DNA of 64,000 nt from Rhodanobacter sp. OK091 (GTDB taxonomy: Bacteria > Pseudomonadota > Gammaproteobacteria > Xanthomonadales > Rhodanobacteraceae), in the NCBI RefSeq assembly GCF_900142825.1, contig NZ_FRCH01000003.1, positions 62,001 to 126,000 on the forward strand, given 5' to 3'. Position numbers and translations under genes: made by a program. Of this stretch, positions 36,718-46,775 are shown in pieces (positions within the stretch are counted from its first letter, which is position 1; the number at the start of each line of letters is the position of its first letter). Under the pieces are notes generated by a model, which had not been told where the DNA came from, searched no databases, and saw only the letters and a program-made list of their open reading frames with translations.

Positions 36718-37415
36718 GTAGGAGCGATTTCAGGCGCGATGGCTTTGCGCTTGAGGGTGGGTTTGAAGCGAAGAGCTTTCGTGCGCCTACGGCGCCCGAG
36801 TTACTTTCTCTTTGTGTGGCCAAAGAGAAAGCTAACCAAAGAGAAAGGCCACCCCGCTTGGCGCTTGCCGGGCTCCTGCCCGGCAAGTCCGTGAGCCGGG
36901 GCCGGGCTTTTCGACAGGGCTCCTGCCCTGACGAAAAGGAGTCGACCTCCTTGTCGACTCCCGCTGCGCGGCCTGTCGACCCCGTCTCACCGCCGCACAG
37001 GGGCCCCGAGTAGAGCGACGCGCCTCCTGCGCGTACTGTTCAGAAGAGCTAGAGCAACAGCCAGAGCGACGCTTCGCTTCGGCTTTTCACCGAGTGCGGG
37101 CCACGATGGCCCGCTGCTCTACCCGGGGCCCCTCTGAAGCGGCGGGTGGGTGGAGGAACAGCCCGCAGGGTGGCCGGCATGGATGCCGGCCAGTTTGGCG
37201 TCAGGGCAGGATGCCCTGTCGACAAACCCCGTAACCCACCCGCGGACCTTGCGGGCACGGATGCCCGCAAGGCGCGTAAGCGGGGTGTCGTTTTCTCTTG
37301 GTTACTTCTCTTTTGGACAAGCAAAAGAGAAGTAACTCGCCCTCCGCAGGAGGGTGAACGCTCTGCACTTAATCAACAAAACGAGCCAGGGCATCGCGAC
37401 TGAAGCCGCTCCCAT
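36718..37415. repeat. ~698-bp hairpin-chain element, copy 1, with inverted REP-like ends
   Basis: Intergenic element nearly identical to 46087-46775. Inverted ends: GTAGGAGCGATTTCAGGCGC (from 36718) and the complementary ACTGAAGCCGCTCCCAT (to 37415). Inside lie a series of perfect hairpins: 36804-36831 (11-bp stem), 36864-36887 (10 bp, loop TCCT), 36907-36938, 36938-36961 (9 bp), 37172-37191 (8 bp), 37202-37218 (7 bp, loop GGA), 37248-37271 (10 bp) and 37301-37336 (14 bp). The left and right halves are roughly reverse complements of each other, so the whole is one large imperfect palindrome. Its centre (37010-37122) is inverted relative to copy 2. No credible gene inside; the open frames are under ~110 codons and differ between strands. 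Confidence 0.85.
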
Positions 37416-37607
37416 GTCCCACCCGAGAGAAAACTCTGGCGCAGCGCCAGCCGGTGCCTAGATATCGAGAGGCATCAGCACCGCGATCAGCCCGCCGAGG
37501 CGGTCGCTGCGCTTTGGTGCTTCAAAACGATCACCACCACCGTGGCGGTGATCATGTAATTGCTGATGAACCAGGCCGTGGTGCCTCCCGCGAGTGGCGG
37601 GCGCGAG
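37416..37607. other. intergenic stretch, possible membrane-protein remnant
   Basis: On the minus strand one frame reads AWFISNYMITATVVVIVLKH (about 37515-37575), a plausible membrane segment. A second frame, after a shift, continues DRLGGLIAVLMPLDI to a stop near 37457. No start codon or full domain is seen. It could be the decayed tail of a small membrane protein, or chance. Confidence 0.25.
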
Positions 37608-38363
37608 TCAGCGGGCTGGCGCGGGAAGGCCTTGCAGGAAGGCGGTGAAGCTCGCCAGGTTGGCTTGCCAGCCGCCGGGATTGCGCGCAGCGACCAGGGT
37701 CGACGCGCCGTGTACGCCGATCTTGGGCTGGTAGTGCACGATGTTGGCGCCGTGAGCGTCGCGCAGCACCTCGGCGACGTCGCTGGCCTCGTTCGGATCG
37801 GTGGTGATGTAGAACGGCAGGGTCACCTTGGCGGCTGCCTGCTTGATCTGGTTCTTGTCGTCGAAGTATTCGCCCGGCGAGAAGCTGGCGATGGCGCTCA
37901 GGCCTTGCGGGTGTTTCGCGGCCAGCACGATCACCAGCGACGAGCTGTAGGAACTGCCCACCGCGACGATGCGCGCGTAGTGCTGCGCGCGGGCCCAGGC
38001 GAGGGCGGCTTCGAGATCGGGCAGCGCGGCCACGTAATCCGCCGACGAGCCGAGCTTCGCCACAGTTTCGTTGTGGCCGCCGAACAGGTCGCCACCGGAG
38101 CGCTGGTCGATCGCGAGGGTGTCGAAGCCCAGCTTCTGCAGCGCCGGCACTACGCTGTCGTACTCGTGCCGATTCGCATGGGCCTGGTGGAACAGCAGGG
38201 CGATGCTGCGGCCGTGCGGCTGCGCCTGGCTGAGCGTGCCGTAGACAGCCACGCCGTCGCTGGTGTGCAAGGTCAGTGGTTCGCCGGCCAGCGCGAGAGC
38301 AGGCAGGCACAGCAGGATCAGACAGGTCCAGCGGATCAGGCGGGCAGGGGACATGACGTGCAT
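37608..38363 (-). CDS. exported alpha/beta hydrolase (dienelactone-hydrolase-like)
   Basis: Encodes 251 residues from the ATG at 38363, which has GAGGAG 7 bp upstream; the longer open frame would overlap hemE. A signal peptide (LIRWTCLILLCLPALALA) predicts export. The hydrolase fold is supported by LLFHQAHANRHEYD (oxyanion loop) and the nucleophile elbow GSSYSSS; this departs from the usual GxSxG by having Ser for the last Gly. An acidic residue in ITTDPNE and a histidine in GVHGAST are likely triad members. The substrate is unknown. Confidence 0.82.
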   Translation of the reverse strand: MHVMSPARLIRWTCLILLCLPALALAGEPLTLHTSDGVAVYGTLSQAQPHGRSIALLFHQAHANRHEYDSVVPALQKLGFDTLAIDQRSGGDLFGGHNETVAKLGSSADYVAALPDLEAALAWARAQHYARIVAVGSSYSSSLVIVLAAKHPQGLSAIASFSPGEYFDDKNQIKQAAAKVTLPFYITTDPNEASDVAEVLRDAHGANIVHYQPKIGVHGASTLVAARNPGGWQANLASFTAFLQGLPAPAR

Positions 38364-38439
38364 GGCGGGGCTCCTCGGGGATACCCGGCGCAGGCTACGT
38401 GAGGCGTCCGGCAAAGGCCAGCGACGGCGGTGCAGCGGC

Positions 38440-39507
38440 TCAGCGCGAGCGCAACTCGCGGCCGTAGCCGTGCACCTCGTCGACCAGCACTTTGACATGC
38501 GCGGGATCGACTTCCGGCGTGATGCCGTGGCCGAGGTTGAACACGTGGCCGGGGTGATTGCCGTAGCTGTCCAGCACGGCGCGGACTTCGCGGCGGATCA
38601 CGTCGGGATGGGCGCGCATCACCGCGGGATCGAGGTTGCCTTGCAGGGCGACCTTGCCGGCGACCACGCGACGGGCATCGGCAAGATCCATGGTCCAGTC
38701 GACGCCGAGCGCGCTGCAGCCGGTGTCGGCCATGTCGGCGAGGTGCTGGCCGGCGCCTTTGGAAAACAGGGTCACCGGGAGATCGCGGGCGTATGGGTCG
38801 GCCTTCAGTGCGGCGACGATCTGCGCCATGTAGCGCAGCGAGAACTCGCGGAACGGGGCGGGTCCGAGCAGGCCGCCCCAGGTGTCGAAGATCATCAGCG
38901 CCTGCGCGCCGGCGGCGGCCTGGGCGATCAGGTAGGCGGCGACGGCGCGCGCCAGAGTATCGAGCAACTTGTGAGCGAGCTTCGGTTCGTTCCAGCACAT
39001 CGCCTTGAGCGTGGCGAAATCCTTCGAGCCCTGGCCTTCGACCATGTAGCAGGCCAGCGTCCACGGGCTGCCGGAGAACCCGATCAGCGGCACGCGGCCA
39101 TGCAGTTCCTGGCGAATCAGCCGCACGGCGTCCATCACGTAGCGCAGCTCGCCGTCCATGTCGGGTACGGCGAGCCTGGCGATGTCGGCAGCCGTGCGCA
39201 CCGGATGCGCGAACTGCGGGCCCTCGCCCTGGGCGAACGAGAGGCCCAGACCCATCGCGTCGGGAATGGTGAGGATGTCGGAAAACAGGATCGCCGCATC
39301 GAGTTCGAAGCGTTCCAGCGGCTGCAAGGTCACCTCGCAGGCGTACTCGGGGTTCTGCGCCAGGCCCATGAAGCTGCCGGCGCGCTCGCGGGTGGCTCGA
39401 TATTCGGGCAGGTAGCGGCCGGCCTGGCGCATCACCCACACGGGCGTGGTGTCGGTGGGCTCCCGGCGCAGCGCGCGCAGGAAGCGGTCGTTCTTCAATT
39501 CGGTCAT
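38440..39507 (-). CDS. hemE: uroporphyrinogen decarboxylase
   Basis: Encodes 355 residues from [13 protein letters not shown]; the open frame extends 12 codons upstream, but this start matches the normal family length (~354). It converts uroporphyrinogen III to coproporphyrinogen III in haem synthesis. Signatures: [16 protein letters not shown] near the N-terminus and the catalytic-aspartate region [16 protein letters not shown]. The C-terminus [14 protein letters not shown] is also typical. The WGR-protein gene starts upstream with a 1-bp gap. Confidence 0.96.
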
Positions 39508-39508
39508 T

Positions 39509-39769
39509 TCAACGTCCGTAAGGGCCTTCGAGGCCCTGGGCAAACATCAGGCGAAACCCGCGCTTGAGCTGGGCATCGCGCGCTTTCTCGAACGCACTGA
39601 CCGCCTCGTCGCGCTCCAGGAACTGCTCGCGCTTCATCGTGGCGCGACCGCCCTGGGTGCCGGATTCGCGGTACAGCGTCCAGCCGCCCAGCAGATCCTG
39701 CTCCAGCGTGATCTGGACGTAGCGTGGTGCCTCGGCGCTGCCTGGCACGGTTTGCAGATAGAGGCGCAT
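39509..39769 (-). CDS. WGR domain-containing protein
   Basis: Encodes 86 residues from the ATG at 39769 ([20 protein letters not shown]). The whole protein is a single WGR domain: [25 protein letters not shown], here with W and G of the core motif and an aromatic/basic pattern. WGR domains occur in PARPs and bacterial MolR-like proteins and may bind nucleic acid; as a stand-alone protein its role is unknown. It is 1 bp upstream of hemE and likely co-transcribed. Confidence 0.8.
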
Positions 39770-39871
39770 GGATTCCGGGTGGACTGTGCGGCACGCCGCA
39801 AACCCAGTCATTCTAGAAGGCTGGCGGCCCGGTAGCGAGGGCGCTGACGTCGCAGGTGTGACGCGACCGCT

Positions 39872-40972
39872 TCAAGGCGGGCTCGTGGCCGCCTGCAGTG
39901 TCGCCAATACATCGGCTTCGGCAACCCCGCCGACAATCTCGGCGCGACCGATGCCGCGCCACAGGATCAGCCGCAGCACGCCGGCGGTGTTTTTCTTGTC
40001 CAGCCGCATCAGCGCCAGCAGTTGCTGCGCCTCCATGCCAGGTGGAATCGTCGTGGGCAGGTCGAGCTTCTCCAGCAATTTCCGCAGTCGCGCGGTATCG
40101 GCACTGCCGCTCATGCCGAGGCGTTCGGACAACTGCGCAGCCAGCAACATGCCGATCGCGACGCCTTCGCCGTGCAGCAAGGTCGTGTAGTGGCCGGCGG
40201 TTTCCAGTGCGTGGCCGAAGGTATGGCCGAGGTTGAGCAGGGCACGCTCGCCTTGTTCAGTCTCGTCGCGGGCGACCACGCCGGCCTTGTAACGCACCTT
40301 GCGCGCGATCGCCTCCAGCACAGCGGCGGAGTCGCGTGCGGCGAGCGCATCGGCGTGCTGCTCCAGCCACGCGAAAAACGGTTCGTCGCCGATCGCCGCA
40401 CCTTTGATCACTTCGGCGAGGCCGGCGCGGTATTCGCGCTCGGGCAGGGTAGCCAGCGTGTCGATATCGGCGATCACCGCGCGCGGCTGATGAAACGCAC
40501 CGGCCAGATTCTTGCCCACCGGCAGGTTGACGCCGGTCTTGCCGCCGACCGAGGAGTCGACCATGGCCAGCAAGGTGGTCGGCATCTGGATGAAGTCGAT
40601 GCCGCGCATCCAGCACGCCGCGCTGAAACCGGCCAGGTCGCCGACCACGCCGCCGCCGAGTGCAATCACGCAGGCGTCGCGGGTGGCACCCAGCTGGCCC
40701 AGCGCTTCCAGCGCGCGGCCGACATTGGCGAAGCTCTTGTGTGCTTCCCCGTCATCGAGCAGGAACGACGACCACTTCAGGCCGTGCAGTCCCTGTTCGA
40801 TGCGCGGCAGGTATAGCGGCGCCACCGTGGTATTGCTGATCACCAGCGCGTGCCGGCCGCGCAGCATGGCGCGCCAACGGGCATGCTCGGTGAGCACGCC
40901 GCTGCCGATCCACACAGGATAGCTACGCTGGCCCAGCGCGACGGTGATGGTCTGGGGTGCGGGGTTGTTCAT
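39872..40972 (-). CDS. aroB: 3-dehydroquinate synthase
   Basis: Encodes 366 residues from the ATG at 40972 ([18 protein letters not shown]). The much longer open frame covers aroK out of frame and is rejected. NAD- and zinc-dependent second step of the shikimate pathway. Seen: the NAD-binding [14 protein letters not shown], metal-ligand region [13 protein letters not shown] and [12 protein letters not shown] (zinc histidines). Overlaps the upstream aroK by 4 bp (ATGA), the usual aroK-aroB order. Confidence 0.96.
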
Positions 40973-41526
40973 GCTTTCTGCCGGGGCCATGCAGTGGATG
41001 GGCGTTGCCAGTGATGATCGATCAGTGCGATGCAGCGTTCGCTGGCGGCGGCGACGCTGCCGTGTTGGCCGGGCACGGCGAGGTCGGCGAGCCCGCGATA
41101 GATCGGCTCGCGGGTCTGCGCCATCGCCAGCAGCCGCTCGTGTCGGTTCGGCACGGCCAGCAGCGGGCGGTGGTGGTCGCGTTCCAGTCGTTCCAGTTGC
41201 TGCTCGACAGTAGTCTGCAGCCATACCACGTAGCCCCGTTCGCCGAGGTAGCTCCGATTCTGCTCGGCCAGCACGGCGCCCGCACCGGTGGCCAGCAGCA
41301 CGCCCTGGCGTTGGCTGCATTCGTCGAGCAAGGCAGTTTCGCGCTGGCGGAAGCCGGCTTCGCCCTCGATCTCGAACACGGTGCTCACGTCCACGCCGCA
41401 ATGGCGCTCGATCTCCTGATCGAGATCGACGAACGGCAGTCCATAATGCACGGCGAGCCGGCGCCCGATCGACGTCTTGCCGGCGCCGGTGGGGCCGATG
41501 ATGAACAGGTTGCACGACGGATTCAT
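40969..41526 (-). CDS. aroK: shikimate kinase
   Basis: Encodes 185 residues from the ATG at 41526. P-loop GPTGAGKTS at 11-19, the DLD substrate-binding acidic motif (VDLDQEIE), the GF(R)xxE motif FRQRETALL and the lid arginine region [18 protein letters not shown]. It phosphorylates shikimate at O3 in the shikimate pathway. Overlaps aroB by 4 bp; the divergent epimerase gene begins 32 bp away. Confidence 0.95.
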
Positions 41527-41558
41527 GGACAAATGCTAACAGGGCAGCTGCGAGGACT

Positions 41559-42395
41559 GTGGTGAGCGAACGGGTATTGCTGGCCGGTTGTGGCGACCTT
41601 GGCCTGCGCGTGGCACAGCGCCTGCTGGCGCGTGGCGATGAAGTGTGGGCGCTGCGGCGCCAGCAGCCGATGCACGATGGCGACGGCATCCACTGGTTGC
41701 GCGGTGATCTGACCCTGCCGGAAACCCTGCGCGGATGGCCGCCGGATATCACCCAGCTGGTCTATCTGCCGACGCCGGACCGGCGCGATGCCGCCGCCTA
41801 TCGCGCGACTTTCGTGGACGGCTTGCGCCATCTGCTTGACGCGCTGGGGCATGACCGCTTGCAGCGCGTGCTGTTGGTTTCTTCCAGCGCGGTTTATGGC
41901 GAACATGGCGGCGACTGGGTGGATGAAGACACGCCGCCGGCACCGCCGGGATTCAATGGCGAAGTACTGCTGGAGGCGGAGCGGTGGCTGGCCGCGCAAT
42001 CACCGGTTTCGATCGTGTTGCGGCTGGCCGGGCTGTACGGTCCCGGACGCATGCAATGGCTGGAACGTCTGCGCGCCGGGCAGGTCGTGGCACCGCGTAC
42101 GCTGCCGCACTGGGCCAATCGCATTCATGTCGACGATGCCGCAGCGGCGGTCGTGCACCTGCTGCAGCTGGACGATCCGTTGCCGCTGTATCTTGGCGTG
42201 GACAACACGCCGCTGCCGCTCGATGTGTTGTACGACCATCTGGCCGGCCTGATCGGCGCGCGACCGGCCGACGACGGCCCGGCTCCGGTCGGTGTCGGTA
42301 GCAAGCGGCTCAGCAACGCGCGCCTGCGCGCCAGCGGCTTCGTGCCGCAATGGCCGGATGCGCGCGATGGTTACGCTGCCTTGTTCGATCAGTGA
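41559..42395 (+). CDS. NAD(P)-dependent epimerase/SDR-family oxidoreductase (YeeZ-like)
   Basis: Encodes 278 residues. GTG codons at 41559 and 41562 are both possible starts, with GAGGA just upstream. The Rossmann motif is the altered [17 protein letters not shown] (GxGxxG form), as in E. coli YeeZ-type atypical SDRs. [13 protein letters not shown] supplies the catalytic Ser/Tyr pattern, though the usual YxxxK lysine is not obvious. Substrate unknown. Divergent from aroK. Confidence 0.82.
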
Positions 42396-42426
42396 AACAC
42401 CCACTCACTCACCAGGGAGAACCCGC

Positions 42427-42771
42427 ATGGCCAACACTGTTCCTCATCACCAGGTCAGCACCAGCAACGAGATTCCCGGCTACCGCATCGTGCGTTCGCT
42501 GGGCATCGTGCGAGGTATCACGGTGCGCTCGCGTAGCGTGGTCGGCAATCTCGGTGCGGCTCTGCAGACGATCGTCGGCGGCAATATCTCGATCTATACC
42601 GAGTTGTGCGAGAAGGCGCGCGAGGAGGCCTTCGAGCTGATGCTGCAGCACGCAGGCGCGATGGGTGCGAACGGCGTGGTGGCGATGCGCTACGACGCCA
42701 ACGACGTGGCCCAGGGCGTCACCGAAGTGCTGGCTTACGGTACGGCAGTGCAAGTGGAAGCGTCAACATGA
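42427..42771 (+). CDS. YbjQ family (DUF74) protein
   Basis: Encodes 114 residues from the ATG at 42427, with AGGGAGA upstream. It matches the YbjQ/heavy-metal-binding domain family throughout: [23 protein letters not shown](E)[20 protein letters not shown]. Family members form pentamers; their function is not established. Followed by the dodecin gene on the same strand. Confidence 0.9.
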
Positions 42772-42882
42772 TGTGATGACGCGGTGCGGCTTGTTGCGGC
42801 CGACGGCTGCGGCGCAGACTCGGGCTTCAGGACCGGGGAAGCGCAACGTGCCGCTCGCACGATCGAATGGGAGATTGACGCC

Positions 42883-43086
42883 ATGTCGGTAGCCAAGGTC
42901 ATCGAAATCAATGCTTCGTCCGCCAAGGGTGTGGAAGATGCCGTGCAGCACGGCTTGCGCAAGGCGGCGGAGTCGGTGAAGAACATCAAGGGCGCCTGGG
43001 TCAACGAGATCAAGGCGGTCACGAAGGACGACGGCACCGTGACCGAGTGGCGCGTCAACATGAAGGTGAACTTCATCGTCGAGTGA
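42883..43086 (+). CDS. dodecin (flavin-binding protein)
   Basis: Encodes 67 residues from the ATG at 42883, preceded by GGGAGA. A complete dodecin: VAKVIEINASSAKGVEDAV, then a helix and GAWVNEIKAV with the tryptophan that stacks on the flavin isoalloxazine ring, then VTEWRVNMKVNFIVE. Dodecins assemble as hollow dodecamers that store or buffer flavins. Confidence 0.93.
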   Translation: MSVAKVIEINASSAKGVEDAVQHGLRKAAESVKNIKGAWVNEIKAVTKDDGTVTEWRVNMKVNFIVE

Positions 43087-43142
43087 GCAGGCAGCGGCGG
43101 GGGCTTCGGAGTGCTCCCGCTTTCCCGTTCCGTTGCCCGAAT

Positions 43143-43976
43143 TCAGCCGTGACTGAGGCCGGTCACGTGACGATCGTCGTCATATTCCACACAGGTGTCG
43201 GCCAGTGCCGGCAAGGTGGCCAGCGCGTGTCGGCTGAGCCGCTCGAAGTGGGCCAGAAAGCGCTCCATCGCCGTCTCGTCCATCGCCAGTGGCGCATGTC
43301 GCGCCAGCAGATCCTGTTCCTGCTCGCCACGCCAGCGGCGCACGATCTCCCAGCTCGGCGCCTGCAACACAATCAGCGCGTCGAACTTGCGCCATAGCGG
43401 CTGGTAGCCGCGCAACTGTTTGTTGACCCAGTGCCGCCAGCTGCCGTCCGGGTCTTCCTTGCGTTCCAGTTCGTTGATTGGTCTGGCCAGTGCGGCCTGC
43501 AGCTGCGGGCGGATACCCAGCGCCCAGCCTTCCACGATCACCAGCCTCGGCGGCCGTGTGGTTCGCGGCCAGCGCGACGGTGAAAAGCGCGTGTCGCGAC
43601 CCTTGTCGAAGCGAGGATGCGTCACCGGCAGCTTGTCCGAGGCGTACGGCAATGCGGCCAGTACCGACATCAATAGTTCGATCTCATGGGTGCCCGGCAC
43701 GCCGCGGCTGCGCAACAAGGGATGTACGTCGCGCGCCAGCGCTTCACGGTCGCTGCGGGCGTAATAGAAATCGTCCAGCGAGAGTACCTCGGTGGCCCAG
43801 CCGCGGGCCTCGGCCTGGGCTTTCATCACCCGCGCCAGCGTGCTCTTGCCGCTGCCCTGCAGTCCGGACAGTCCCAGGATGTACGGGCGCCGCGAGCGGG
43901 CGATGCGCCCCGCGTACTGGTCGAGCAGATGGCCGGCGAGGGCTTCGTTCTGCATGTCTGCGTGAGACATCTTCAT
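43143..43976 (-). CDS. P-loop kinase, D-glycerate 3-kinase-like
   Basis: Encodes 277 residues from 43976; an ATG at 43970 is equally possible. Walker A SGLQGSGKST (about 36-45), an acidic LSLDDFYY motif, and a long insertion with HPRFDKGRDTRF, as in the plant-type glycerate kinase / phosphoribulokinase-like family. Such enzymes phosphorylate D-glycerate at C3. Close relatives in gammaproteobacteria are often annotated only as 'kinase', so the substrate is likely but not certain. Confidence 0.8.
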   Translation of the reverse strand: MKMSHADMQNEALAGHLLDQYAGRIARSRRPYILGLSGLQGSGKSTLARVMKAQAEARGWATEVLSLDDFYYARSDREALARDVHPLLRSRGVPGTHEIELLMSVLAALPYASDKLPVTHPRFDKGRDTRFSPSRWPRTTRPPRLVIVEGWALGIRPQLQAALARPINELERKEDPDGSWRHWVNKQLRGYQPLWRKFDALIVLQAPSWEIVRRWRGEQEQDLLARHAPLAMDETAMERFLAHFERLSRHALATLPALADTCVEYDDDRHVTGLSHG

Positions 43977-44208
43977 CCGCGGGCTACCCCGGTTCCGGGA
44001 GGTATTTCGGCTGCGGGAAGATAGCGGTGGCGGTGTGTCCCGCCAACCGACGCGCAGCGACCGTCTTCACATTTCACGGCGGAAAATGATGCCGCCCGCC
44101 GTGCGGAAGTGGTACTGGATGAATGGGGCATTGCACTATCATCGGTCAGATTCATTTGCGCCATGATGGCGCGTGTCAGCCACGATGCAAAAGGAAAGTT
44201 TCAACATC

Positions 44209-44796
44209 ATGCTCAAACCCGAGATTCTGGACACCTTCCTGCGGTTGCTGGACGAGGCCAAGGCCAGCGGCGATCGCGATCCGACGGCGATGAGCGTGGC
44301 CACCGTCGACGGCTCCGGCCGCGTCGCGTCGCGCATCGTGCTGCTCAAGGGTGCCGACGAGCGCGGCTTCCGCTTCTACACCAACTACCAGAGCGACAAG
44401 GGCGATCAGATCGAGGTTCACCCGCAGGTCGCGTTGTGTTTCCACTGGAAGCAGCTGCGCGATGGAGTCCAGGTGCGCGTGGAGGGTGTCGCACGCAAGC
44501 TGCAGGACGAGGAATCGGACACGTACTTCGCCAGCCGTCCGCGCCAGAGCCAGATCGGCGCGTGGGCGTCGCTGCAATCGCAGACGCTGCCCGATCGGGA
44601 GGCGTTCGAGCAGCGGGTGGCACGCTACGAGCAGCAGTTCGATGGCCGCGAGGTGACTCGGCCACCGCATTGGGGTGGCTACGTGGTCGAAGCGGACATG
44701 CTGGAGTTCTGGTACGGCGCCGAGTTCCGCCTGCACGAACGGGTGCGCTGGGATCGCCACGGCCAGACCTGGACCAGCCGGCTGCTGTATCCGTGA
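44209..44796 (+). CDS. pdxH: pyridoxamine 5'-phosphate oxidase
   Basis: Encodes 195 residues from the ATG at 44209 (MLKPEILDTFLRLL), chosen for AAGGAAA upstream; in-frame ATG 44185 and GTG 44173 give longer forms. FMN-dependent final step of pyridoxal 5'-phosphate synthesis. Signatures: DPTAMSVATVD, RIVLLKGADERGFRFYTNYQ (FMN phosphate site), SRPRQSQIGAWAS and the C-terminal EFWYGAEFRLHERV. The N-terminal arm of E. coli PdxH is missing, as is common. The stop overlaps the next start as GTGA. Confidence 0.94.
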   Translation: MLKPEILDTFLRLLDEAKASGDRDPTAMSVATVDGSGRVASRIVLLKGADERGFRFYTNYQSDKGDQIEVHPQVALCFHWKQLRDGVQVRVEGVARKLQDEESDTYFASRPRQSQIGAWASLQSQTLPDREAFEQRVARYEQQFDGREVTRPPHWGGYVVEADMLEFWYGAEFRLHERVRWDRHGQTWTSRLLYP

Positions 44797-45233
44797 CCAG
44801 GCCGCTGCCCGCGGAGCATGTGGCGCAGGGCGGCTTCGCCGTGCACACGCGCGGCCGCGGCTTCAGCGACATCACGGCGCAGGTGGCCGACGCGGTGGCG
44901 AGCAGCCACGTGCAGACCGGTATCGCGAACGTCTTCACCGCGCATACCAGCTGCTCGCTGCTGCTTGGCGAGAACGCCGACCCCCACGTGCGCGACGACC
45001 TCGAGCGCTGGTTTGCGCGCGCGGTCCCCGATGGCGATCCCATCTTCGAACACGATGCGGAGGGCCCCGACGACATGCCGGCGCATGTCCGTTCGATCCT
45101 CACCGGCGTCAGCCTCACGGTACCCGTCCACGCCGGCAAGTTGCTGCTGGGCACGTGGCAGGGCGTCTACCTGTGGGAGCATCGTCTCGATCCGCACCAG
45201 CGCAAGGTCACGGTGACCGTGCTGGGGCATTGA
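44793..45233 (+). CDS. YjbQ family protein (secondary thiamine-phosphate synthase-like)
   Basis: Encodes 146 residues from a GTG at 44793 that overlaps the pdxH stop (GTGA). UPF0047/YjbQ domain: TRGRGFSDITAQV, NVFTAHTSCSLLLGENAD (with the conserved His and Ser-Cys), SILTGVSLTVPVHAGKLLLG and the terminal WQGVYLWEHR. E. coli YjbQ has weak thiamine-phosphate synthase activity, but its physiological role is unsettled. Coupling with pdxH hints at a vitamin-cofactor theme. A BtuF-like gene starts 4 bp downstream. Confidence 0.88.
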   Translation: MTRPLPAEHVAQGGFAVHTRGRGFSDITAQVADAVASSHVQTGIANVFTAHTSCSLLLGENADPHVRDDLERWFARAVPDGDPIFEHDAEGPDDMPAHVRSILTGVSLTVPVHAGKLLLGTWQGVYLWEHRLDPHQRKVTVTVLGH

Positions 45234-45237
45234 GCGC

Positions 45238-46056
45238 ATGAACGGACAGGAAACTCGTTCGCCGGATCACTTTCCGCAACGCATCGTCTGCCTCACCGAG
45301 GAGCCGACCGAGGTGTTGTACGCGCTCGGCGAGGACCGCCGCATCGTCGGTATTTCCGGCTTCACCGTGCGGCCGCCGCGGGCACGCAAGGAGAAGCCGA
45401 AGGTCTCGGCGTTCATCAGCGCGAAGATCGGCGAGATCCTGAAACTCGAACCCGACCTGGCGATCGGTTTCTCCGACATCCAGGCCGACATCGCACGCGA
45501 GCTGATCAAGGCCGGCGTCGAGGTGTGGATCAGCAATCACCGCAGCGTCGACGGAATTCTTGCCTACATCCGCCGGCTGGGCGCGATGGTCGGTGCGCAC
45601 GAAAAAGCCGAGGTCTACGCCCGGCGTGCCGAACAGCACATCGCCGACATCCGCGCCGCGGTCGCGCGGTTGCCGCGGCGACCGAAGGTGTATTTCGAGG
45701 AATGGGACGAGCCGATCATCACCGGCATCCGCTGGGTGGCCGAGATCATCGGCATCGCCGGCGGCGACGACTGCTTTCCCGAGCTGGCGCGCGAGCCGCT
45801 GGCGAAACAGCGCATTCTGCCCAACGGCGACGAAGTGATGCGGCGCGCGCCGGACATCATTCTCGGCTCCTGGTGCGGCAAGCGCTTCCGGCCCGAACGC
45901 GTCGCTGCGCGGCCCGGTTGGGACACCATTCCGGCGGTGCGCAACGGCGACCTGTACGAAATCAAATCGCCGATCATTCTGCAGCCGGGACCGGCGGCGC
46001 TGTTCGATGGGCTGGACGAGATCCATCGCATCATCACGGAGTGGGCGCTGCGCTGA
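45238..46056 (+). CDS. BtuF/FhuD-type substrate-binding-like protein without signal peptide
   Basis: Encodes 272 residues. The periplasmic-binding-protein fold of the vitamin B12/siderophore class is clear: RIVCLTEEPTEVLYALGEDRRIVGI, KLEPDLAIGFSDIQADI, YFEEWDEPIITGIRWVAEII and the C-terminal AALFDGLDEIHRII. BtuF proteins are normally exported, yet no signal sequence is seen from either the ATG or in-frame upstream codons. It starts 4 bp after yjbQ. It may be a cytosolic cobinamide/cobalamin-binding protein; no transporter subunits are nearby. Confidence 0.82.
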   Translation: MNGQETRSPDHFPQRIVCLTEEPTEVLYALGEDRRIVGISGFTVRPPRARKEKPKVSAFISAKIGEILKLEPDLAIGFSDIQADIARELIKAGVEVWISNHRSVDGILAYIRRLGAMVGAHEKAEVYARRAEQHIADIRAAVARLPRRPKVYFEEWDEPIITGIRWVAEIIGIAGGDDCFPELAREPLAKQRILPNGDEVMRRAPDIILGSWCGKRFRPERVAARPGWDTIPAVRNGDLYEIKSPIILQPGPAALFDGLDEIHRIITEWALR

Positions 46057-46086
46057 GTTTTTTTGGTTTTGGGTTGTTGGTCTTTT

Positions 46087-46775
46087 GTGGGAGCGACTTC
46101 AGTCGCGATACTTTTTGGTGGTTTGAAGCGAAGAGCTTTCGTGCGCCTACGGCGCCCGAGTTACTTTCTCTTTGTGTGGCCAAAGAGAAAGCTAACCAAA
46201 GAGAAAGGCCACCCCGCTTGGCGCTTGCCGGGCTCCTGCCCGGCAAGTCCGTGAGCCGGGGCCGGGCTTTTCGACAGGACTCCTGTCCTGGCGAAAAGGC
46301 ATCGGCATCCTTGCCGATGCCCCTGCGGGCCTGTCGACCCCGTCTCACCGCCGCACAGGGGCCCCGGGTAGAGCAGCGGGCCATCCTGGCCCGCACTCGG
46401 TGAAAAGCCGAAGCAAAGCGTCGCTCTGCTGTTGCTCCGGCTCTTCTGAAAAGTGCGGGCCACGATGGCCCGCTGCTCTACCCGGGGCCCCTCTGAAGCG
46501 GCGGGTGGGTGGAGGAACAGCCCGCAGGGTGGCCGGCAGGGATGCCGGCCAGTTTGGCGTCAGCACAGGATGTGCTGTCGACAAACCCCGTAACCCACCC
46601 GCGGACCTTGCGGGCAGGGATGCCCGCAAGGCGCGTAAGCGGGGTGTCGTTTTCTCTTGGTTACTTCTCTTTTGGACAAGCAAAAGAGAAGTAACTCGCC
46701 CTCCGCAGGAGGGTGAACGCTCTGCACTTAATCAACAAAACGAGCAAGAGCCATTGCGACTGAAGTCGCTCCCAC
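46087..46775. repeat. ~689-bp hairpin-chain element, copy 2, with inverted REP-like ends
   Basis: Second copy of the element at 36718-37415, same orientation. Its ends are near-perfect inverted repeats: 46087-46109 (GTGGGAGCGACTTCAGTCGC...) against 46753-46775, one mismatch, each with an internal GCGACT/AGTCGC hairpin. Internal hairpins match copy 1 in place, but stems at 46275-46290, 46298-46321 and 46561-46577 differ by paired, structure-keeping substitutions. The centre 46368-46481 is inverted relative to copy 1. It lies between convergent genes (BtuF-like and yggT). No gene is credible inside. Confidence 0.87.

Follow-up and report, generated by a model that had tools for sequence, protein, structure and literature searches.

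Compensated stems, conserved GGA loops and a possible CsrA/RsmA link in the inverted arms of a repeated Rhodanobacter element

A stretch of 64,000 nucleotides from Rhodanobacter sp. OK091 (contig NZ_FRCH01000003.1, positions 62,001 to 126,000, hereafter the window) contains two copies, W1 and W2, of a repeated element whose arms form series of hairpins. Where these hairpins differ between the copies, both sides of the stem change together and the loops remain nearly the same. What is under selection in these arms, on which strand, and which factor could read the loops?

Fold, loops and strand of the arms

Both copies are imperfect palindromes composed of a left arm (L), a core and a right arm (R), with about 540 bp between the arm ends; the arms, approximately 215 bp each, are inverted around the small core, and W1 shows a 72% match to its own reverse complement (arm names and the hairpin letters A-F and H are labels introduced in this analysis). 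In W1, arm L (36798..37016, plus strand) carries a terminal inverted-repeat hairpin, hairpin A (36864..36887), and the long-range stem P0 (36892..36989), in which 36892-36900 pairs with 36981-36989 and closes a junction of hairpins B (36908..36937, with an outer TTTTCG/CGAAAA stem), C (36938..36961) and H. The core (37010..37122, no strand assigned) is followed by arm R (37125..37338, plus strand) with hairpins D (37172-37191), E (37202-37218) and F (37247-37272) and a terminal hairpin (37301-37336). The corresponding parts of W2 are arm L (46158..46374, plus strand; A 46224-46247, B 46268-46297, C 46298-46321, H 46322-46328), the core (46368..46481, no strand assigned) and arm R (46484..46697, plus strand; D 46531-46550, E 46561-46577, F 46606-46631). 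The small hairpin H is one base pair shorter in W2 (CC TGC GG, compared with CGC TGC GCG at 36962-36970 of W1). The W1 core matches the reverse complement of the W2 core at 99 of 115 positions and the direct sequence at 66 of 114, and is thus inverted between the copies. On the plus strand the loops contain TCC in the left arm and GGA in the right arm, so that GGA always lies on the strand that reads outward from the element; for instance, the TCCT loop of hairpin A in W1 is AGGA on the outward, minus strand. Inverted repetitive extragenic palindromic (REP) sequences bound both copies, with about 650 bp between them: 36718..36739 (plus strand, GTAGGAGC...GCGA type, imperfect stem) and 37394..37415 (minus strand) around W1, and 46087..46108 (plus strand, GTGGGAGCGACTTCAGTCGCGA) and 46754..46775 (minus strand) around W2.

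The original prediction, drawn from these two copies, was that the stems change by compensation under nearly constant loops, and direct reading bears it out. One G-C pair of 36915-36930, within hairpin B (CAGGGC/GCCCTG around TCCT), is an A-T pair at 46275-46290 (CAGGAC/GTCCTG around TCCT); three matched changes separate 36938-36961 (GGAGTCGAC, loop CTCCTT, GTCGACTCC) from 46298-46321 (GGCATCGGC, loop ATCCTT, GCCGATGCC); and two pairs differ between 37202-37218 (CAGGGCA/TGCCCTG around GGA) and 46561-46577 (CAGCACA/TGTGCTG around GGA). The partner matches at all six differing stem positions (6/6), and the three hairpins contain no uncompensated change.

The covariation was also found when the copies were collected. 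The L-arm alignment comprises 100 arms (99 distinct rows) from this and related genomes, leaving out six longer arms with insertions and one refetched W2 copy. The tested fold, consisting of hairpin A and of P0 (span about 90 nt) with the hairpins B, C and H that it encloses, has standard pairs in 96.9% of 4228 cells, compared with 86.7% in shuffled alignments and 34.8-44.2% when the partner column was slid by one to three positions; pair counts with these two controls and RNAalifold were used in place of R-scape. Changes on both sides of a pair occur in 403 cells, compared with 115.2 (sd 14.6) in shuffles, none of the 500 shuffles being as high, and 23 of the 43 pairs contain such a change. 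One-sided G-U changes occupy only 10 cells. RNAalifold returned the same helices unprompted. For two of the hairpins, each of the four possible allele combinations is present among the copies, which indicates that hairpin alleles recombine; since alleles are reshuffled in this way, the 403 cells are not 403 events and the independent events are fewer. Kinship among arms likewise inflates the two-sided counts, and it is retained in the slid control. The stem P0 covaries too. Its columns 104/196 are unpaired in 74 of 99 rows; P0 is paired in 89.0% of cells with this column and in 97.1% without it, compared with 98.0-99.8% for the other L stems, and the statement that the local hairpins are far more perfect than the long-range stem, which rested mostly on that one column, was therefore dropped.

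The 51 aligned R arms behave in the same way: with two mostly unpaired positions excluded from the stem count, D, E, F and the closing stem P0' hold 198 two-sided cells (62+2+46+58+30). The number of distinct perfectly paired stems is 5 for A, 6 for P0, 1 for outer B, 7 for inner B, 11 for C and 3 for H in the L arms, and 6 for D, 2 for outer E, 3 for inner E, 8 for F and 3 for P0' in the R arms. Judged from these alignments, each arm has a conserved fold, with one hairpin (A or F) standing alone and the others enclosed by the long-range stem, and its stems vary with compensation.

The loops were counted at 465 hairpin places in positions A-F (one further place was skipped, and a few spurious pattern matches are included). 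Read on the outward strand, they have the form C[A(N)GGA(N)]G with free N: GGA is present at 428 places and the closing pair is C-G at 459, the dominant loop lengths are 4, 5 and 6 bases, and the base before GGA takes all four letters (ATGGAT 93, AGGGAT 85, AAGGAT 23, ACGGAT 11 among the ANGGAT hexaloops). The view that the loops are recognised and the stems need only be paired fits these counts best. Four elements come from a single genome that belongs to a different family of this order; by the classification used here, GGA loops are present in 11 of the 14 inner hairpins that measure 7 bp or more (4/5, 3/5, 2/2 and 2/2), with diverged linkers and stems and about four distinct stems recurring between the elements.

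The mismatches within the stems point to the strand. As G.T on one strand corresponds to A.C on the other, their counts tell the two strands apart. On the GGA strand of the L arms the G.T:A.C ratio is 26:9 in distinct alleles (p=0.006), 38:11 by rows (p=0.00014), and 20:8 with each mismatch counted once per column pair; on the GGA strand of the R arms, which is the opposite one, it is 14:5 in alleles (p=0.064) and 19:6 by rows (p=0.015). Combined, both arm types give 40:14 (p=0.0005). A mutational bias would also appear in the unpaired columns, which therefore serve as a control, and these have no such bias (G>A 88/3373 and C>T 72/3482 in L arms; 11/1834 and 8/1117 in R arms; L stems by rows against unpaired columns, Fisher p=0.005). 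The alignments thus argue that it is the folded outward, GGA-bearing strand that is under selection and that G.T is tolerated there. The outward strand probably works as RNA, which is the simplest reading.

Copies, sites and gene-bearing forms

Full copies, with arm ends 524-559 bp apart, number 17 in the 4.42-Mb genome, and partial ones occur as well; the element is short, non-coding and present in many copies, and it has terminal inverted repeats, as do miniature inverted-repeat transposable elements (MITEs). The core lies one way in 6 of the 17 copies and the other way in 10, one being left uncalled by the script. With scoring limited to the 10 best candidates of each genome, at least one match was found in each of the 36 genus genomes searched (in one of them, G035, a single weak one) and in 5 of the 24 genomes searched from elsewhere in the order; named records with the L-arm motif (95 stretches) belong mostly to Rhodanobacter, with two from Dyella. 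The terminal-hairpin pattern, with three mismatches allowed, occurred only in the own genome among 274 genomes of the class, a thin sample with mostly one or two genomes per family. No match to the element was found in the phage collection, and the plasmid collection gave one partial match, an isolated 87% match to the terminal hairpin over 61 query bases in Aeromonas caviae (NZ_AP026896.1, 395887-395944).

By eye, inverted REP-like palindromes, a few of them degenerate, surround all 17 own copies. Among 54 uncut elements, mostly of relatives and one being the refetched W2, a strict REP pattern was found at both ends in 8, at one end in 11 and at neither in 35; a further 15 elements are cut by a contig or locus end. 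Several elements without strict REPs, gene-bearing ones among them, sit among different palindromes; for instance, the flanks of L147, L151 and L059 contain another palindrome family (GTCATTCC...GGAAT-like) resembling the CGTC-type REPs. Matches to Y1 transposases number 96 in 45 genomes, and at one of the 30 loci examined these REPs are nearby: in L226 (1225-2128) the RAYT-like (REP-associated tyrosine transposase) gene of a relative is located amid several GTGGGAGC REP pairs of the type that bounds the elements. A lone Y1 transposase of the own genome (L071, C4:1155-4481) lacks these REPs and lies beside Rhs-looking sequence, apparently (by eye) within its own inverted repeats. Some elements are collapsed (L186, L191, L178, L274, L283) and retain only their outermost tips or the arms as far as hairpin A, as if by hairpin-mediated slippage deletion.

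The two arm types are combined differently in short and in gene-bearing forms. Among inward-facing pairs of arms each scoring above 100 bits, 35 are L/R, 109-373 bp apart, and 14 are L/L, 135-3900 bp apart, 10 of them by more than 1 kb; the arms of the sole R/R pair are separated by 1955 bp. Interiors above 1 kb are thus found in 0 of 35 unlike-arm and 11 of 15 like-arm pairs (p=4e-8). The L arms were gathered mainly by the L-arm pattern and the element query, so that R/R forms are under-sampled, and 50 of the 147 arm-bearing loci have a single arm within the fetched stretch. Including three L/L loci with one partial arm (L086, L093, L151), 14 loci contain more than 1 kb inside, all between inverted arms. 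Short forms thus have unlike arms and gene-holding forms like arms. Near-perfect palindromes with a short spacer are unstable, and it is likely for this reason that short forms need unlike arms.

Some of the interiors contain anti-phage genes. L067 has a Pycsar system (PycTIR and PycC) next to a PDC-S52 gene; L085 has an AAA_13/PDC-S06 gene, L086 a PIN gene besides type I methylase and specificity genes, L147 a CAP12-TIR/PDC-S35 gene and L151, from Dyella, a DUF5131 gene whose PDC-M30A/M41A-like partner is a weaker match. There are also a NERD gene (L059), SDR and AraC genes (L060), DUF2254 (L142), an ice-binding-like open reading frame (ORF; L097), and genes without a match (L058, L061, L062, L064, L093). 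At E < 1e-20, PADLOC models matched 7 of the 20 cargo proteins, spread over 5 of the 12 loci scanned, and none of 10 control proteins from the window (best 7e-5); this enrichment is only suggestive. The genes of L060 and L097 were covered by the Pfam scan only, and some smaller interior ORFs lie outside any scan. No transposase family is present among the Pfam hits of the 20 cargo proteins, and no parent element was found.

Different forms can occupy the same site. One own L/R copy, c11, lies where a relative carries L-genes-L (L062). Across 30 loci of this site, six have an L/R element (c11 included), a further one has an inverted element (L279), and L256 is the gene-bearing element itself; three have one arm or a fragment, others have tips, REP-like pairs or neither, and nine are unreadable. 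The entire L279 element runs opposite to the copies that other genomes have at this site. The W2 site varies among relatives too: some have a full element, others a remnant, a REP pair (L172) or nothing at all. Another site, S2, was dropped as evidence, its right flank being present in only one of 30 loci.

Candidate readers of the loops

The hairpins match published CsrA/RsmA sites, in that several of them have GGA in an ANGGAN- or AGGAN-type loop closed by C-G. According to a review, the CsrB repeat is CAGGA(U/A/C)G, the RsmE-bound hexaloop is ANGGAN with both N variable, and the consensus from SELEX (systematic evolution of ligands by exponential enrichment) is RUACARGGAUGU (PMC7652899). 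The host has one CsrA gene. Based on this resemblance, the recognising factor is probably CsrA/RsmA. The arms being inverted, every transcript that runs through the element, in either direction, would end in the far arm with sense GGA hairpins, and the mRNA of a gene inside it would likewise have its 3' end within one arm. Each arm RNA would present the C[A(N)GGA(N)]G hairpin three or four times (as A, B and C, or as D, E and F, often with a core hairpin too), and it most likely binds CsrA/RsmA dimers because these hairpins match the published sites. The bound RNA could titrate CsrA/RsmA, mark or stabilise transcript 3' ends, or regulate the cargo. The arms may also be handles for recombination by which interiors, the empty core or genes, are swapped at fixed sites; the evidence for this part is thinner. 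As an overall explanation, outward arm RNA with CsrA/RsmA-bound GGA hairpins and arms used for exchange is the best that we have, and we consider its chances about even.

A number of observations weigh against it. No promoter-like site was found in W1 or W2, so transcription would need to start outside the element or from interior genes. The 10 one-sided G-U cells are fewer than expected of an ordinary RNA, and in the L arms further pair types do not exceed the shuffles (41 vs 39.0, with 121 of 500 as high). GGA is missing from 37 of the 465 loops. A cruder count of mismatches over A-F in regex-cut hairpins gave 21:15 (p=0.41), the orientation of hairpin B being partly ambiguous there; the aligned counts are preferred for their unambiguous orientation. 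Stems of 6-10 bp are longer than in most SELEX ligands, and very stable stems may hinder CsrA, as the same review (PMC7652899) suggests. The Xanthomonas RNA RsmU, which sequesters RsmA and has three to four GGA motifs, is described in PMC7694677 as still binding RsmA and functioning with all four GGA motifs changed, which calls for caution in any motif-based claim. Both arms are retained although one strand would suffice. Finally, no Rfam family matched the window at its gathering score, and relaxing the threshold brought up six weak matches between 36400 and 47200, none of which reaches that score.

How do other explanations account for the same facts? Conversion between hairpin arms, named in the original prediction as what could undo it, or template switching at quasi-palindromes might perfect the stems of a young family whose loops are kept by youth alone. 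One-sided changes are indeed almost absent, alleles do recombine between copies, and collapsed elements such as L186, L191 and L274 look like hairpin-mediated deletions. On the other hand, the loop constraint is position-specific, with GGA fixed and N free; GGA loops recur in another family of the order, where stems and linkers have diverged; P0 covaries at 97.1% pairing compared with 98.0-99.8% for the local stems, though local correction should act less there; and conversion by itself provides no source for an excess of G.T on one strand (40:14) that is lacking in unpaired columns. This purely neutral explanation was already disfavoured and appears highly improbable, though arm conversion may help to keep the stems perfect, as may template switching, which accounts neither for the loops nor for the strand bias. 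The outward strand bias would equally suit a structured RNA with another loop reader, or arms that terminate transcription in both directions or stabilise 3' ends with no specific reading of the loops. The intergenic placement fits as well, with 7 of the 17 own copies between convergent, 4 between tandem and 3 between divergent genes and 3 uncalled, a count that comes from a rough ORF heuristic and is not decisive. A(N)GGA(N) loops are not needed for a terminator or stabiliser, however, three sites look divergent, and terminator-like sites number 2 in W2 (1.1 in shuffles) and 0 in W1 (1.0 in shuffles); we regard other kinds of RNA as distinctly unlikely.

A further possibility is that the arms act as single-stranded DNA, their hairpins being read by a transposase or recombinase, of RAYT type or other, with the loops as DNA recognition marks. 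It is favoured by the REP-like palindromes around all own copies, by the RAYT-like locus L226 amid the same REPs, and by a hypothesis, given in PMC3733652, that GTAG REPs are mobilised by RAYTs; the scarcity of G-U intermediates also agrees with it, and a single DNA strand could yield strand bias as well. The REP association is weaker beyond the own genome, with strict REPs at both ends of 8 and at neither end of 35 of the 54 elements, several gene-bearing elements amid other palindromes, and these REPs near one of the 30 Y1 loci examined and not at the own-genome L071. The loops, moreover, match an RNA motif, and the cargo has no transposase family among its Pfam hits. We therefore see DNA recognition as a rather unlikely alternative.

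Returning to CsrA/RsmA, the arms might represent a new kind of mobile element, whose inverted and orientation-independent binding arms tie the expression of the interior, often anti-phage, to a global regulator of the host or titrate that regulator from dozens of copies; we put this forward tentatively, as something that may well turn out otherwise. According to PMC7694677, no significant homologue of CsrB, CsrC or RsmV-Z is reported from any sequenced Xanthomonas genome. Should CsrA/RsmA bind to the arms, an organism of that same order would have its CsrA decoys on a repeated element, and scattered repeats that were long taken as inert palindromes would be regulatory RNA. CsrA aside, the family offers a natural experiment in which a fold and its loops are selected while the stems are free, and it points to gene cassettes with, among other contents, a Pycsar system and various uncharacterised genes that merit screening for defense.

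Comparison with known systems

In the portions of the open PMC literature consulted on CsrA with REP or MITE, on REPINs (REP doublets forming hairpins) with cargo or defense, and on Rhodanobacter repeats, we found no matching description. The cassettes of integrons lie between attC sites in direct orientation; here, the arms are inverted around all 14 interiors above 1 kb and directly oriented adjacent arms occur only three times, 275-387 bp apart, and attC sites were therefore rejected. The REPs of a REPIN are separated by some tens of bases, unlike those of W1 and W2. With REPINs and the RAYT-linked GTAG and CGTC REPs, as described in PMC3733652, the family shares inverted REP-like palindromes around own-genome copies, intergenic location and hairpins; it differs in the long insert, the folded arms, the GGA loops and the gene-holding forms, in that REPs were not found by the strict pattern at most copies of relatives, and in a RAYT link at one locus only.

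The sequestering RNAs CsrB, RsmZ and RsmU, according to PMC7694677 and PMC7652899, similarly consist of several hairpins with GGA-type loops; here these are arranged as inverted pairs on a repeated intergenic element with many copies per genome and no Rfam match at gathering score. Defense-gene transposons, for instance the Tn7-like ones in PMC8649781, also hold anti-phage genes between inverted ends; in the present family no transposase is recognised inside and the ends are hairpin arrays. The MITE-like repeats of Pseudomonas fluorescens, as described in PMC2718517, are likewise short, non-coding, multicopy and intergenic, with inverted arms around a core; the Rhodanobacter family is distinguished from them by a conserved multibranch fold, a single loop motif, and the division into short L/R and gene-bearing L/L forms.

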